Assembly (NCBI GenBank): GCA_021107335.1 | Contig: JAIOSZ010000130.1 | Location: forward strand, 1-10,700 | Direction of reading: 5' to 3' | DNA from: Desulfuromonadaceae bacterium | GTDB taxonomy: Bacteria; Desulfobacterota; Desulfuromonadia; Desulfuromonadales; Syntrophotaleaceae | Length of the DNA: 10,700 nucleotides | Shown: in pieces, positions 1,745-6,480 of the stretch | Numbering within the stretch: the first letter of the stretch is position 1 | Layout: each line of letters starts with the position of its first letter | Program-made: the position numbers and the translations under genes | The notes under the pieces: model-generated | Database searches by the model: none | The model's input: the letters and a program-made list of their open reading frames with translations, nothing else | Told to the model about the DNA's origin: nothing

Positions 1745-1788
1745 TTGCAATCATGCAACAAAAAGCTGAGTCTTTGCATCCGTGCAAA
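1745..1788. promoter_or_regulatory. Unit A activator sites 1 and 2 (paired palindromes)
   Basis: Two palindromes: TTGCA-ATCA-TGCAA at 1745-1758 (centre 1751.5) and TTTGCA-TCCG-TGCAAA at 1773-1788 (centre 1780.5), 29 bp apart. The same pair with the same spacing precedes units B and C. They begin only 16 bp after the response regulator stop codon and lie 257-286 bp upstream of the -12 element of promoter A, a usual range for enhancer sites of sigma-54 activators. Site 2 is followed by a further TTGCA half-site at 1793-1797. The protein that binds is inferred to be the adjacent response regulator. Confidence 0.75.
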
Positions 1789-1803
1789 TGAGTTGCACGG
1801 ATG
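1777..1803. repeat. Perfect 11-bp inverted repeat overlapping activator site 2
   Basis: CATCCGTGCAA, a 5-nt spacer (ATGAG), then TTGCACGGATG. It shares its left arm with palindromic site 2, so the region can be read as two overlapping dyads. As DNA it may be an extra operator dimer site; as RNA, if the regulator transcript reads through, it would form a hairpin in the 3' UTR of the response regulator. There is no T tract directly after it. Confidence 0.6.
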
Positions 1804-1863
1804 TTGCGAGGCGTTACAGCGGACCATCAAGAGATGACTAAGGCCCAGTTTTAGGGCGATGAG

Positions 1864-1895
1864 CGGGCTCCCGGCAATGGGAAGCCCGTTTTTTT
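1864..1895 (+). terminator. Rho-independent terminator of the kinase/regulator operon
   Basis: Stem CGGGCT + CCC / GGG + AGCCCG with one bulged A (1882) and a 6-nt loop (1873-1878), followed by seven T (1889-1895). It sits 135 bp after the regulator stop codon. Activator sites 1 and 2 of unit A lie inside the 3' UTR it ends, while site 3 lies beyond it. Confidence 0.85.
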
Positions 1896-1909
1896 ATGGT
1901 TTATAGGGG

Positions 1910-1927
1910 TTTTGCAACGCTGCAAAA
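1910..1927. promoter_or_regulatory. Unit A activator site 3
   Basis: TTTTGCA-ACGC-TGCAAAA, perfect 7-bp arms with the N4 centre at 1918.5. It lies 138 bp after site 2 and 119 bp before the -12 GC of promoter A. Units B and C have a corresponding site (139 and 136 bp after site 2). Confidence 0.75.
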
Positions 1928-1967
1928 GATTCAATGTTGATTTCAGAAAGGATGGCCCTCGTTCGCC

Positions 1968-1980
1968 TTTAACTGCCAGA
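1968..1980 (+). promoter_or_regulatory. Unit A conserved spacer box (possible bending-protein site, weak copy)
   Basis: TTTAACTGCCAGA, starting 49.5 bp after the centre of site 3, exactly where units B and C carry TGTAACTAACTGA and TGTAAGTAGCTGA. Nine of 13 positions match the B copy. On its own the match to an IHF site is poor; the support is the shared position. Confidence 0.4.
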
Positions 1981-2023
1981 GATGATAGGGTTTTTTGAGG
2001 TTTTGTTGGGTCCGGGGGCATCT

Positions 2024-2039
2024 TGGTATAGGCCTTGCT
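2024..2039 (+). promoter_or_regulatory. Sigma-54 promoter of unit A (-24/-12)
   Basis: TGGTATAGGCCTTGCT: GG at 2025-2026 and GC at 2037-2038 with the required 10-bp gap, TTGC at -12. Transcription should start near 2049. The same 16-base sequence is found at promoter B. It drives the MFS carrier gene through a leader of about 300 nt. Confidence 0.88.
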
Positions 2040-2049
2040 CAATCCCTGT

Positions 2050-2351
2050 CCTGAAAGTTACTTCTTTTTGGCAAAGGACCGTGGGGGTCCTTGTTGAGGG
2101 ACAGGATAATTCGTGCTCCATACACCTTTCAAATAATAGCTTTTTGATGGTGTGATATCCCTGCTCCTTCAGTTTGCCGCTTGAATGAGGCTTTTAAGTG
2201 CCTCAAGATACACGTTAGACAGCTTGCTATTGAACTGAGCCAGAATCCTGTTTCGAAGATTTTGCCCGTTCTGACGAGATGCCTGACCCGAGAAAATTGG
2301 CTGCGGATTGCCCAGTCATAACTGACATTGAAGGAAGAGGAGAGAACAATC
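2050..2351 (+). other. Long 5' leader of unit A, partly shared with leader B
   Basis: About 300 nt of untranslated RNA are expected between the sigma-54 start and ATG 2352. The first ~75 nt resemble leader B: GAAAGTTACT at 2053-2062, and GTTGAGGGACA (2093-2103) placed 55.5 nt after the -12 centre in both. A short hairpin GGACC-GTGGG-GGTCC (2076-2090) and a possible longer-range pairing of CCTGTCC (2045-2051) with GGACAGG (2099-2105) are visible. I see no convincing gene in the remainder and no riboswitch class that I recognise. Confidence 0.5.
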
Positions 2352-5266: not shown

Positions 5267-5496
5267 GCCCGAAAGTTACTCCTTTCAGGCATGGAGTTGC
5301 GGCAGACATTGTTGAGGGACAAGGACTACTTCGCTCCATGCCACTTTTAAAACTTCAGGTTTTTACACCTTGCAAGGATACAGGCTCACAGAACATCAAT
5401 ATCATGAGCGGCGAGCAGGAGATGTGGCTCACCCCCGTGCCAGCTGAACCGTTGGTCCGCTCTATCTCAAACCCGAATTAACAGGAGAAAAAAGTT
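5267..5496 (+). other. 5' leader of unit B with a long-range stem
   Basis: About 230 nt. The first part resembles leader A: GAAAGTTACTCCTTT (5271-5285) and GTTGAGGGACA (5311-5321). A perfect 9-bp inverted repeat, GGCATGGAG (5288-5296) with CTCCATGCC (5334-5342), encloses the GTTGAGG element. A possible 25-codon ORF (ATG 5404 to TAA 5481: MSGEQEMWLTPVPAEPLVRS...) ends just before the SatP ribosome binding site, but it has no Shine-Dalgarno of its own, so I do not call it a gene. Confidence 0.5.
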
Positions 5497-6087
5497 ATGG
5501 CAGATCAACGTACCCTGGTAGACAATACCGCAAATCCCGCTCCTCTTGGCCTGCTCGGGTTCGGTATGACTACTGTGCTTCTCAACCTGCACAATGCCGG
5601 TTTCTTCCCCCTCGATACTATGATTCTTGCCATGGGTATTTTCTACGGTGGCGCCGCTCAGATCCTGGCTGGTCTCATGGAATGGCGCAAGGGCAACACC
5701 TTTGCCACTACCGCCTTTATCAGCTACGGTTCTTTCTGGCTGACCCTGGTGGCTCTGGTGCTTATTCCTAAAGCTAACCTTGTTGGCATTGCCGGTCCTG
5801 AAAAGGCCACCGCTATGGCTGCCTACTTGACCATGTGGGGTCTGTTTACCGCGGTTATGTTCCTCGGCACCCTGCGTCTCAGCCGCGCTCTGCAGGTCGT
5901 TTTCGGTTCTTTGACCCTGCTTTTCTTCCTGCTGGCCGCTGGTGACTTTACTGGTAACCATACCCTTACCGTTATTGCCGGTTACGAAGGCATCTTTTGT
6001 GGCTTCGCCGCTATCTATACTGCCTTGGCTCAGGTGCTGAATGAAGTTAATGGCCGCCAGGTGCTGCCGCTGGGTGCTATGGCCTAA
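5497..6087 (+). CDS. satP: Acetate/succinate channel, GPR1/FUN34/YaaH family (SatP homologue)
   Basis: Inner-membrane protein of 196 aa, the usual length for bacterial SatP. ATG 5497 is preceded by AGGAG (5483-5487) at 9-nt spacing. The family signature is present at residues 13-19 (NPAPLGL), and six hydrophobic segments follow, with conserved FYGGAAQILAGLMEW, YGSFWL and MWGLFTAVMFLGTLR. Characterised members (E. coli SatP/YaaH, Citrobacter koseri SatP, yeast Ato1) move acetate and succinate, probably as hexameric channels. Codon use is rich in C/T third positions and the gene looks highly expressed compared with its diverged paralogues. It is a one-gene unit: a sigma-54 promoter with three upstream palindromes in front, a strong terminator behind. 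The family call is firm; the symbol is by homology and the actual acid carried is not proven. Confidence 0.93.
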   Translation: MADQRTLVDNTANPAPLGLLGFGMTTVLLNLHNAGFFPLDTMILAMGIFYGGAAQILAGLMEWRKGNTFATTAFISYGSFWLTLVALVLIPKANLVGIAGPEKATAMAAYLTMWGLFTAVMFLGTLRLSRALQVVFGSLTLLFFLLAAGDFTGNHTLTVIAGYEGIFCGFAAIYTALAQVLNEVNGRQVLPLGAMA

Positions 6088-6119
6088 TCCACCCAAAAAT
6101 CGGCTGATAGTGAAACACT

Positions 6120-6151
6120 AATGGCGGGGCCTCATGGTCCCGCCATTTTTT
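6120..6151 (+). terminator. Rho-independent terminator after the SatP gene
   Basis: ATGGCGGGGCC, loop TCAT, GGTCCCGCCAT, with one G-T pair, followed by six T (6146-6151). It lies 33 bp after the stop codon and closes unit B. Confidence 0.93.
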
Positions 6152-6185
6152 ATGGGGCAACGGTTCAAGCTCCTCAGAAATTTGT

Positions 6186-6231
6186 TTTTGCAAAAATGCA
6201 AAAGCAGCTCAGAGCTTTGCATCGGTGCAAA
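6186..6231. promoter_or_regulatory. Unit C activator sites 1 and 2 (paired palindromes)
   Basis: TTTTGCA-AAAA-TGCAAAA at 6186-6203 (centre 6194.5) and TTTGCA-TCGG-TGCAAA at 6216-6231 (centre 6223.5), 29 bp apart as in units A and B. As in unit A, an extra TGCA (6237-6240) follows site 2 at 13.5 bp from its centre. Confidence 0.75.
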
Positions 6232-6350
6232 TGGGGTGCATTCGCTGGAAGAAGATGTCTAACTATCCGGATATTCAGGGTAATTCACAAGAAAGTACAG
6301 GGGCCCGGGTCGGAGAGGGCGATCTTTTATGGGTTGCATCTTTGTCCGCC

Positions 6351-6368
6351 TCTTGCATAGTTGCGAAA
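6351..6368. promoter_or_regulatory. Unit C activator site 3 (imperfect)
   Basis: TCTTGCA-TAGT-TGCGAAA, centre 6359.5; 5 of 7 arm positions pair. It is 136 bp after site 2 and 119 bp before the -12 GC, the same last distance as in unit A. Confidence 0.6.
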
Positions 6369-6408
6369 TGTGTGTCTGCAGGTGATATATGGTTGTTCGG
6401 GCACGTTG

Positions 6409-6421
6409 TGTAAGTAGCTGA
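6409..6421 (+). promoter_or_regulatory. Unit C conserved spacer box (IHF-like)
   Basis: TGTAAGTAGCTGA followed by AAA, 49.5 bp after the centre of site 3 and 11 of 13 identical to the unit B copy. Confidence 0.5.
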
Positions 6422-6464
6422 AAACATAGGAAAAAACAGGTATTGGTCTGGCTGTACCAAGTGT

Positions 6465-6480
6465 TGGTACGCAGTTTGCT
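6465..6480 (+). promoter_or_regulatory. Sigma-54 promoter of unit C (-24/-12)
   Basis: TGGTACGCAGTTTGCT: GG at 6466-6467, GC at 6478-6479, 10-bp gap. Start of transcription near 6490. It drives the Cys-rich SatP fusion gene and probably the HTH gene behind it. Confidence 0.82.

Follow-up and report, generated by a model that had tools for sequence, protein, structure and literature searches.

The window analyzed here is a stretch of 10,700 nucleotides from a Desulfuromonadaceae bacterium. It carries the end of a histidine kinase gene, an NtrC-type response regulator gene, a set of carrier genes and three putative regulatory units, A, B and C (Table 1). A full-length relative of the kinase (L024:8032-10005) has a dCache_2-HAMP-HisKA-HATPase architecture and is 94% identical over the common part. 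The regulator scores over the cut-offs of all three Pfam domains and contains GAFTGA, which places it in the NtrC family. Its assignment as AtoC was rejected, with 432.5 bits against an NCBIfam equivalog cut-off of 714. The helix-turn-helix motif MNM-T-YRK is kept at ≥95% of 64 distinct C-termini of regulator orthologs. The MFS carrier had been labeled OFA in the original prediction, a label that did not hold. It scored 200.3 and 136.4 bits with the two oxalate/formate models against NCBIfam cut-offs of 374.85 and 335, and an oxalate/formate antiporter identity was rejected. The carrier exceeds the cut-off of the L-lactate MFS transporter SfMCT (367.7 against 320 bits), and this substrate is a prediction. 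SatP-type carriers 1, 2 and 3 are over the SatP/AceTr_1 NCBIfam cut-off of 50 bits, with 90.5, 279 and 125.7 bits.

Table 1. Genes and regulatory features of the window.
Feature	Position	Strand	Remarks
Histidine kinase, C-terminal part, truncated at contig end	1-345	+	Pfam HATPase_c
NtrC-type response regulator, likely palindrome binder	338-1729	+	Response_reg, Sigma54_activat, HTH_8; GAFTGA in translation
Unit A distal pair	1744-1759 (1 mismatch), 1773-1788 (0)	+	Centers 1751.5, 1780.5; motif TTTGCA-N4-TGCAAA
Unit A proximal palindrome	1911-1926	+	0 mismatches to TTTGCA-N4-TGCAAA
Unit A IHF-like element	1970-1987	+	Weak, PWM 8.2
Unit A predicted -24/-12 promoter	2024-2039	+	TGGTATAGGCCTTGCT
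MFS carrier, SfMCT/OFA type	2352-3629	+	Profile matches
SatP-type carrier 1	3708-4310	+	Profile matches
110-aa protein	4420-4752	+	Weak TctB match below cut-off (Pfam)
Unit B distal pair	4972-4987 (2 mismatches), 5001-5016 (0)	+	Centers 4979.5, 5008.5
Unit B proximal palindrome	5140-5155	+	0 mismatches
Unit B IHF-like element	5199-5216	+	PWM 17.5
Unit B predicted -24/-12 promoter	5242-5257	+	TGGTATAGGCCTTGCT, as in unit A
SatP-type carrier 2	5497-6087	+	Profile matches
Unit C distal pair	6187-6202 (0 mismatches), 6216-6231 (0)	+	Centers 6194.5, 6223.5
Unit C proximal palindrome	6352-6367	+	2 mismatches
Unit C IHF-like element	6411-6428	+	PWM 17.0
Unit C predicted -24/-12 promoter	6465-6480	+	TGGTACGCAGTTTGCT
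SatP-type carrier 3, N-terminal Cys-rich domain (~residues 1-52) and linker	6608-7597	+	SatP match residues 139-303; domain alignment

The nine palindrome centers were recomputed and are identical to those given in the original prediction, and the spacings were reproduced. Sites 1 and 2 of the distal pair are 29 bp apart in all three units, site 2 lies 138, 139 and 136 bp from the proximal site 3, and site 3 lies 119, 108 and 119 bp from the -12 GC in A, B and C, respectively. Despite two mismatches, the unit B site at 4972-4987 is a perfect palindrome (TTCGCA..TGCGAA). The palindromes are beyond chance: the window contains 17 matches with ≤3 mismatches against 7.6 expected, and 0 of 200 shuffles reached 17. 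All six perfect TTTGCA-N4-TGCAAA copies in the assembly (2,177,878 bases scanned, 67% complete) lie inside the window, and the reversed control gave 0. The strict 29-bp pair geometry was not borne out. Pair spacing in relatives is 28-33 bp, which makes the 29-bp value a preference of this genus and no strict rule.

Downstream of each palindrome trio lies a predicted sigma-54 promoter with the proposed -24/-12 pattern, GG-N10-GC in a TGGCAYR-N4-TTGCW-like context. The three match 10, 10 and 11 of the 12 positions of the sigma-54 consensus. An IHF-like element lies between proximal palindrome and promoter; in unit A, the best match to the plain IHF consensus (6/8 positions) is elsewhere than 1970-1987. 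The source genome encodes sigma-54 and three IHF/HU-type proteins. Units A and B have ~100 nt after the promoter in common, conserved in the genus. A leader RNA in A and B was considered and rejected: it had no Rfam match, no pair was changed on both sides, and of the 136 genomes only three, each from this genus, contain the tested pattern.

The palindromes recur ahead of -24/-12 promoters in relatives, where the original prediction had suggested looking. A gene-blind scan for site plus promoter found 115 places (91 + 24) in 136 genomes of the order with a pattern restricted to a TTT or TTC start and distances of 94-124 bp, which weaker or remoter units escape (133 bp in L026), and the reversed control gave 0. 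The 115 classed targets count each match in the retrieved stretches once, and their number equals 91 + 24. In agreement with the predicted shared operator and compact transport regulon, 111 of the 115 precede carrier, hydrolase or Cys-rich genes (MFS, 50; SatP, 39; alpha/beta hydrolase, 21, a class set up post hoc with seven BLAST references that are matches themselves; Cys-rich protein, 1), and four fall outside these classes. Pfam analysis of the hydrolase class, from which L221 was left out, matched the seven references to hydrolase families and did not match the eighth member, L214. Outside the order, the scan gave 48 matches, of which 47 were analyzed (G602 lies 94 bases from its contig end and was left out), and 44 of the 44 with a gene in the stretch precede an MFS gene, a SatP gene or the Cys-rich/M350 operon. 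The classable genes among the 115 + 47 matches are carrier, hydrolase or Cys-rich/M350 genes, and one unit in the relatives has an acetate CoA-transferase downstream. Judged from recurrence in genome sequences, the layout is a predicted regulon spread through the order, ahead of acetate- and lactate-type uptake genes.

The four-cysteine domain of many target carriers follows the pattern CPx8CDVGxGYISxxDx7Cx6C and is either fused to the carrier or encoded by a separate first gene. Neither this domain nor the membrane protein family of the regulon has a match in Pfam or NCBIfam. The AlphaFold model of the Cys-rich protein has a mean pLDDT of 50 and was unusable, and a search with the M350 protein returned no solved structure at E ≤ 1. 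The Cys-rich domain in many targets, the hydrolase targets, the IHF-like element and the ~one-turn promoter-proximal steps are additions to the original prediction.

In the relatives, the distance from proximal site to promoter clusters near 97, 109 and 120 bp, in steps of roughly one helical turn. Three peaks, at 94-98, 107-111 and 118-122 bp, take in 100 of 115 matches and were replicated outside the order. For one set of these distances the best fit is a period of 12, for the other 10.5. In 107/111 matches another site stands ≤200 bp farther upstream than the proximal one, against 0.8 in shuffled sequence; the full triad is present in 48/111 against 0. The pair-to-third-site distance has no periodicity near 10.5-11 bp (R 0.06-0.10). 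By PWM, the IHF-like element occurs between proximal palindrome and promoter in 108/115 matches against 7 shuffled. The IHF consensus is WATCAR-N4-TTR, complement YAA-N4-YTGATW (PMC7962754). Candidate IHF sites with ≥7/8 positions of YAA-N4-YTGAW number 99/115 against 35 shuffled, and those with 8/8 number 36/115 against 2. In most elements the letter following YTGA is A instead of the consensus T. On each side, the spacer to the element has one of two discrete lengths ~one turn apart, and 16 of the 47 matches outside the order are without an element at threshold.

On these data the Cache-kinase/NtrC-type pair probably acts through sigma-54 and IHF to induce the uptake of short-chain monocarboxylates, each unit combining an enhancer with a sigma-54 promoter. 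The membrane kinase, with its Cache sensor, would phosphorylate the adjacent regulator, the signal presumably being acetate, lactate or a close relative. Regulator dimers would then bind the palindromes, with the distal pair ~three helical turns apart. With ~97, 109 or 120 bp between it and the -12 element, the proximal site would lie on much the same helix face relative to the promoter. IHF, bound at the YAA-N4-YTGA element, would introduce a bend that lets the assembled activator reach the sigma-54 holoenzyme and open the promoter. MFS and SatP carriers would be induced together, along with alpha/beta hydrolases in the relatives. The sequence analysis establishes the DNA elements, their spacings and targets and their occurrence together with the regulator; from these we infer regulator-DNA binding, IHF binding and activation rather than repression.

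The sites may instead have divided roles, with the distal pair activating and the proximal palindrome acting as a governor-like brake that limits expression when the regulator is abundant, or with these roles swapped. glnA has governor sites, the units consist of two separable modules, and in 14/111 matches the distal pair is replaced by two sites in the proximal position with a spacing of 31-32 bp. Against this, it is the proximal site that keeps its phase with the promoter, which an activating contact would require, and we regard divided roles as unlikely.

The palindromes could also be operators of another protein, either another sigma-54 activator or a regulator merely near sigma-54 promoters, the adjacent regulator being a bystander. 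The source genome gave 17 matches to PF00158, including 14 strong ones, and five genomes with sites (assemblies 76-91% complete) have no regulator ortholog found. The distribution favors the adjacent regulator, the binder proposed in the original prediction, as the likely one: its ortholog (called at E ≤ 1e-130) is present in 64/69 genomes with a match against 30/67 without, although Fisher tests on this co-occurrence ignore kinship. A stricter pair pattern has a weaker link to the regulator (19/21, p = 0.02). Nine family-mates of other genera (G005-G013) lack both regulator and site matches. Full units are present at 33 of 61 loci picked around the regulator or site pairs, with 0 in ten local shuffles; the 40 units at these loci count at least one unit twice, owing to repeated loci (L043 = L178, apparently L033 = L165). 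Of the 61, one is the window, 20 are named-contig loci and 40 are chosen stretches, among which L166 and L167 were picked for a site pair instead of the regulator. Units thus adjoin the ortholog group and are absent beside 60 activators of 38-43% identity, control loci mostly from other classes and phyla and hence no same-genome control. The layout stays intact in L029, L032, L037 and L039, where the carrier operon has the opposite orientation and the regulator gene is ~3 kb away. A different binder is accordingly judged quite improbable.

Recent duplication of one promoter region could produce an identical layout that is no sign of constraint. The three units share partial homology (A/B, 74% over 113 bp; A/C, 81% over 57 bp; B/C, 73% over 49 bp), and equal spacing within the window is therefore partly inherited by duplication. 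As a full explanation this is very unlikely, since the parts and distances recur before three gene families, in and outside the order, in otherwise different DNA, and duplication alone does not explain steps of ~11 bp. The palindromes might also have arisen by chance in A+T-rich DNA between genes. In favor of this, 2/378 genomes in the other classes of the phylum sample have a match, ahead of genes of other kinds. Against it, reversed-pattern controls gave 0 and shuffles 0 or below 1, and the prospect is negligible.

Returning to activation by the adjacent regulator, we offer a tentative extension that is somewhat less likely than not to hold. Proximal site, IHF bend and sigma-54 promoter might form a scaffold with quantized spacers, the site-bend and bend-promoter intervals each having a short or long form one turn apart and evolution shifting promoters by whole turns. 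Distal pair and proximal site, as three palindromes for three dimers and one hexamer, might nucleate a single activator ring, and the new four-cysteine domain, fused or separate, might tune the transporters by metal or redox state.

Short-chain carboxylates rank among the chief nutrients of many sediment bacteria that reduce metals and sulfur, and for their uptake the analysis names an operator, a regulator and targets that can be put to the test. The 162 promoters compared (115 + 47) share their components, differ in spacer length by ~one turn and offer a data set on the phasing of bacterial enhancers relative to IHF bend and sigma-54 promoter. The regulon further brings to light a Cys-rich domain and a family of membrane proteins outside Pfam/NCBIfam.

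The titles and abstract starts searched, with few subscription journals among them, hold no recognizable description of the operator or regulon. At Escherichia coli glnAp2, two NtrC sites lie ~32 bp apart, with weaker sites nearer the promoter. The present units resemble such NtrC-type enhancers in having pairs of palindromic 16-17 bp sites spaced by ~three turns, a -24/-12 promoter downstream of them and an NtrC-type activator. They differ in operator sequence, in a distal pair some 220-290 bp up, in a phased strong proximal site, and in the IHF-like element and carboxylate-carrier targets. GnfM is the Geobacter nitrogen-fixation regulator, with nif targets. Like SfMCT and SatP (AceTr_1) carriers, the products here pass the NCBIfam cut-offs, but many have an extra N-terminal Cys-rich domain. 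In the Geobacter sulfurreducens RpoN regulon paper, the main text is without TTTGCA, TGCAAA or "palindrom", and the oxalate-formate antiporter GSU2490 is assigned to RpoD (PMC2725144). The available portions of the related papers compared assign no sigma-54 activator to these carriers. Desulfovibrio vulgaris DVU3023 and DVU0539/DVU0946 are described as sigma-54-type lactate response regulators (PMC4641369, PMC3333781). They are similar in acting on lactate use and permeases through mostly palindromic sites, and differ in belonging to another class and in targets that include lactate/pyruvate oxidation genes. IHF-assisted sigma-54 promoters (PMC7962754) likewise place an IHF site between enhancer and promoter, whereas the IHF-like element here stands at two discrete distances on each side, ~one turn apart.

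All nine palindromes were reproduced with the centres and spacings originally predicted. The assembly (2.18 Mb, 67% complete) contains six perfect copies, every one inside the window, which is the whole contig; the reversed control pattern has no match in this assembly. Units A, B and C, each a distal palindrome pair, a proximal palindrome and a -24/-12 sigma-54 promoter, are partial duplicates of one another, and some of the spacing identity among them is therefore due to duplication. Units A and C belong to the long class, with 119 bp between the proximal site and the -12 GC; unit B has 108 bp, and the 11 bp it lacks are on the promoter side. 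The leaders after promoters A (2040-2150) and B (5258-5366) are alike and conserved in the genus; an Rfam search with them gave no match, and a search for covariation found no support.

Relatives of the response regulator form two groups: 20 named-contig loci with at least 60% identity (L024-L043; 97% in L024), from Desulfuromonadales and Geobacteraceae, and 60 loci with 38-43% identity (L044-L103). Full units (pair, third site and promoter) were located in 33/61 loci, 40 units in total, and were absent from the 60 loci (876 kb) of the 38-43% identical activators and from ten local shuffles. In loci L029, L032, L037 and L039 the regulator gene and the carrier operon are in inverted orientation to each other, and the layout moves with the operon. 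A gene-blind scan for one palindrome site plus a sigma-54 promoter pattern gave 91 (TTTGCA) and 24 (TTCGCA) matches in the 136 genomes of the order, and the reversed controls gave none. Site-plus-promoter matches are also present in 40/141 genomes of the class outside the order. A phylum sample of 395 genomes had matches in 9: 3/9 in the own order, 4/8 in the rest of the class and 2/378 elsewhere, these last two with next genes outside the target classes, one near an AMP-binding enzyme. The core of the original prediction, a shared operator of a sigma-54 transport regulon, stands. Its scope was too small, and its strict 29-bp pair spacing gives way to a range of 28-33 bp.

BLAST was used to classify genes starting within 450 bp of the 115 distinct matches in the order. 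The targets are MFS carriers of OFA/SfMCT type (50/115, 30 with a Cys-rich N-terminus), SatP proteins (39, 25 with a Cys-rich N-terminus), alpha/beta hydrolases (21), one stand-alone Cys-rich protein and four others (L282, L239, L216 and L221). At L282 the contig ends too soon to leave any room for a gene, the L239 target is a cut gene closest to succinyl-CoA:acetate CoA-transferases that scores 491.8 bits to TIGR03458, below the cut-off of 658.7, and the genes at L216 and L221 received no assignment. Outside the order, 47 of 48 matches were read: a Cys-rich gene is the target in 20, followed in 17 of them by M350, a membrane protein of about 350 aa; M350 alone follows in 2, SatP in 13, MFS in 9 and no gene in the stretch in 3. 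The alpha/beta hydrolases at L224, L229, L230, L235, L240, L250 and L257, under the palindrome operator, are of uncertain subfamily; four of the five scanned against NCBIfam were closest to 3-oxoadipate enol-lactonase (PcaD or fused PcaDC), below cut-off. In L026 (10826-12872), a unit with weaker sites precedes elongation factor P and an EpmA-like gene resembling class II synthetases; gene pairs of ~187 and ~304 aa at L153, L155, L161, L208 and L209 resemble L026 in gene lengths only.

Features of the window and of relative loci (window genes from reading frames and domains)
Feature	Location	Strand	Relatives
Histidine kinase, end part	1-345		
Sigma-54 response regulator	338-1729		
MFS carrier	2352-3629		
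SatP protein, first	3708-4310		
110-aa protein	4420-4752		
SatP, second	5497-6087		
SatP, third, long N-terminal extension	6608-7597		
Cys-rich domain	6608-6763		
Small HTH protein	7632-7889		
Cache-HAMP protein	8120-8923		
Exonuclease-domain protein	8993-10678	opposite to other window genes	
Cys-rich domain	L042:14384-14584	-	
Cys-rich domain	N-terminus of L029:10603-12318	-	
M350	L028:12526-13572		P0121-P0240

The Cys-rich domain (CPx8CDVGxGYISxxDx7Cx6C) sits at the N-terminus of MFS and SatP carriers, or forms a stand-alone first gene, behind which the M350 gene lies in Geobacter-type genomes. It has 223 relatives, each of its four cysteines is kept in 37-38 of 39 aligned sequences, and it has no match in Pfam or NCBIfam. 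M350 has 200 relatives and no match in Pfam, NCBIfam or PDB; among the 120 matches listed, annotation is absent or "hypothetical/membrane protein", and one is from Geobacter sulfurreducens. The small HTH protein, behind the third SatP gene and retained in the genus, has Mor/resolvase-type HTH matches.

Among the 111 places in the order that offer 200 bp of sequence upstream, 107 have a further palindrome there (at most 2 mismatches; shuffled, 0.8) and 48 a pair 26-35 bp apart (shuffled, 0), while at 14 a site immediately precedes the proximal palindrome at a spacing of 31-32 bp; the corresponding counts for the 47 places outside the order are 45, 18 and 0. The pattern allowed any distance of 94-124 bp from proximal site to -12 GC, and 100/115 in the order fall at 94-98 (10), 107-111 (31) or 118-122 bp (59). 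Distances outside the order are 97-99 (4), 106-109 (20) and 115-122 bp (23). These recurrent distances step by about one helical turn. The resultant for period 11 is 0.61 in the order and 0.62 outside, with 0/20000 uniform draws as high in each set, related promoters not being independent. Only "about one turn" can be claimed because the best of four periods tried was 12 in the order and 10.5 outside.

The interval from proximal site to promoter contains a putative IHF-like element, YAA-N4-YTGA, whose sequence agrees with the complement of the IHF consensus given in PMC7962754. The element exceeds the matrix threshold in 108/115 places in the order (shuffled, 7; matrix trained on the same set) and in 31/47 outside (shuffled, 3), and is a weak match in unit A. 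The element starts 39-43 (23) or 49-54 bp (85) before the promoter in the order and 42 (5) or 50-54 bp (24) outside, with outliers at 30 and 91. Its start lies 54-58 (30) or 64-69 bp (77) downstream of the site centre in the order, where a single case is at 76 and no value falls between the two ranges, and 56-57 (10) or 64-68 bp (18) outside, with outliers at 26, 74 and 78. Total distances near 97 pair with the short promoter side (10/10), whereas at 118-122 the promoter side is long (58/59); distances of 107-111 occur with either (11 and 16).

The regulator's domains are the parts of an NtrC-type activator. Orthologs, defined by a match at E <= 1e-130, are present in 94/136 genomes of the order: in 64/69 with a site-plus-promoter match versus 30/67 without (Fisher 6e-10, kinship ignored), and in 19/21 with the stricter pair pattern (p = 0.02). 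Across 64 distinct ortholog C-termini the HTH residues MNM-T-YRK are at least 95% conserved; these positions differ in the eight control activators shown. The own genome encodes sigma-54 and three IHF/HU-type proteins. Linkage and co-occurrence suggest the regulator as a binder of the palindromes, one candidate among several because this genome has 17 PF00158 matches, 14 of them strong. In this genus the kinase carries a dCache_2 sensor. The Cache-HAMP protein, which is without a kinase or chemoreceptor output domain, shows 20-29% similarity to the sensor region of the orthologous kinases. A short-chain monocarboxylate is the suggested signal, judging from the lactate- and acetate-type carriers, the hydrolases, which could release acids, and the one acetate-activating enzyme.

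Identification of the regulator as AtoC was rejected since the AtoC cut-off was not reached, and the MFS carrier was likewise rejected as an oxalate/formate type by the cut-offs of those models. The available parts of PMC2725144, PMC4641369, PMC3333781, PMC7962754 and PMC12316311 contain no description of an operator with these palindromes. The layout would act in the manner of an IHF-assisted NtrC-type enhancer, and the regulator is a member of the NtrC-type family; as far as could be seen, the operator, the regulon, the phased layout and the Cys-rich domain are new.
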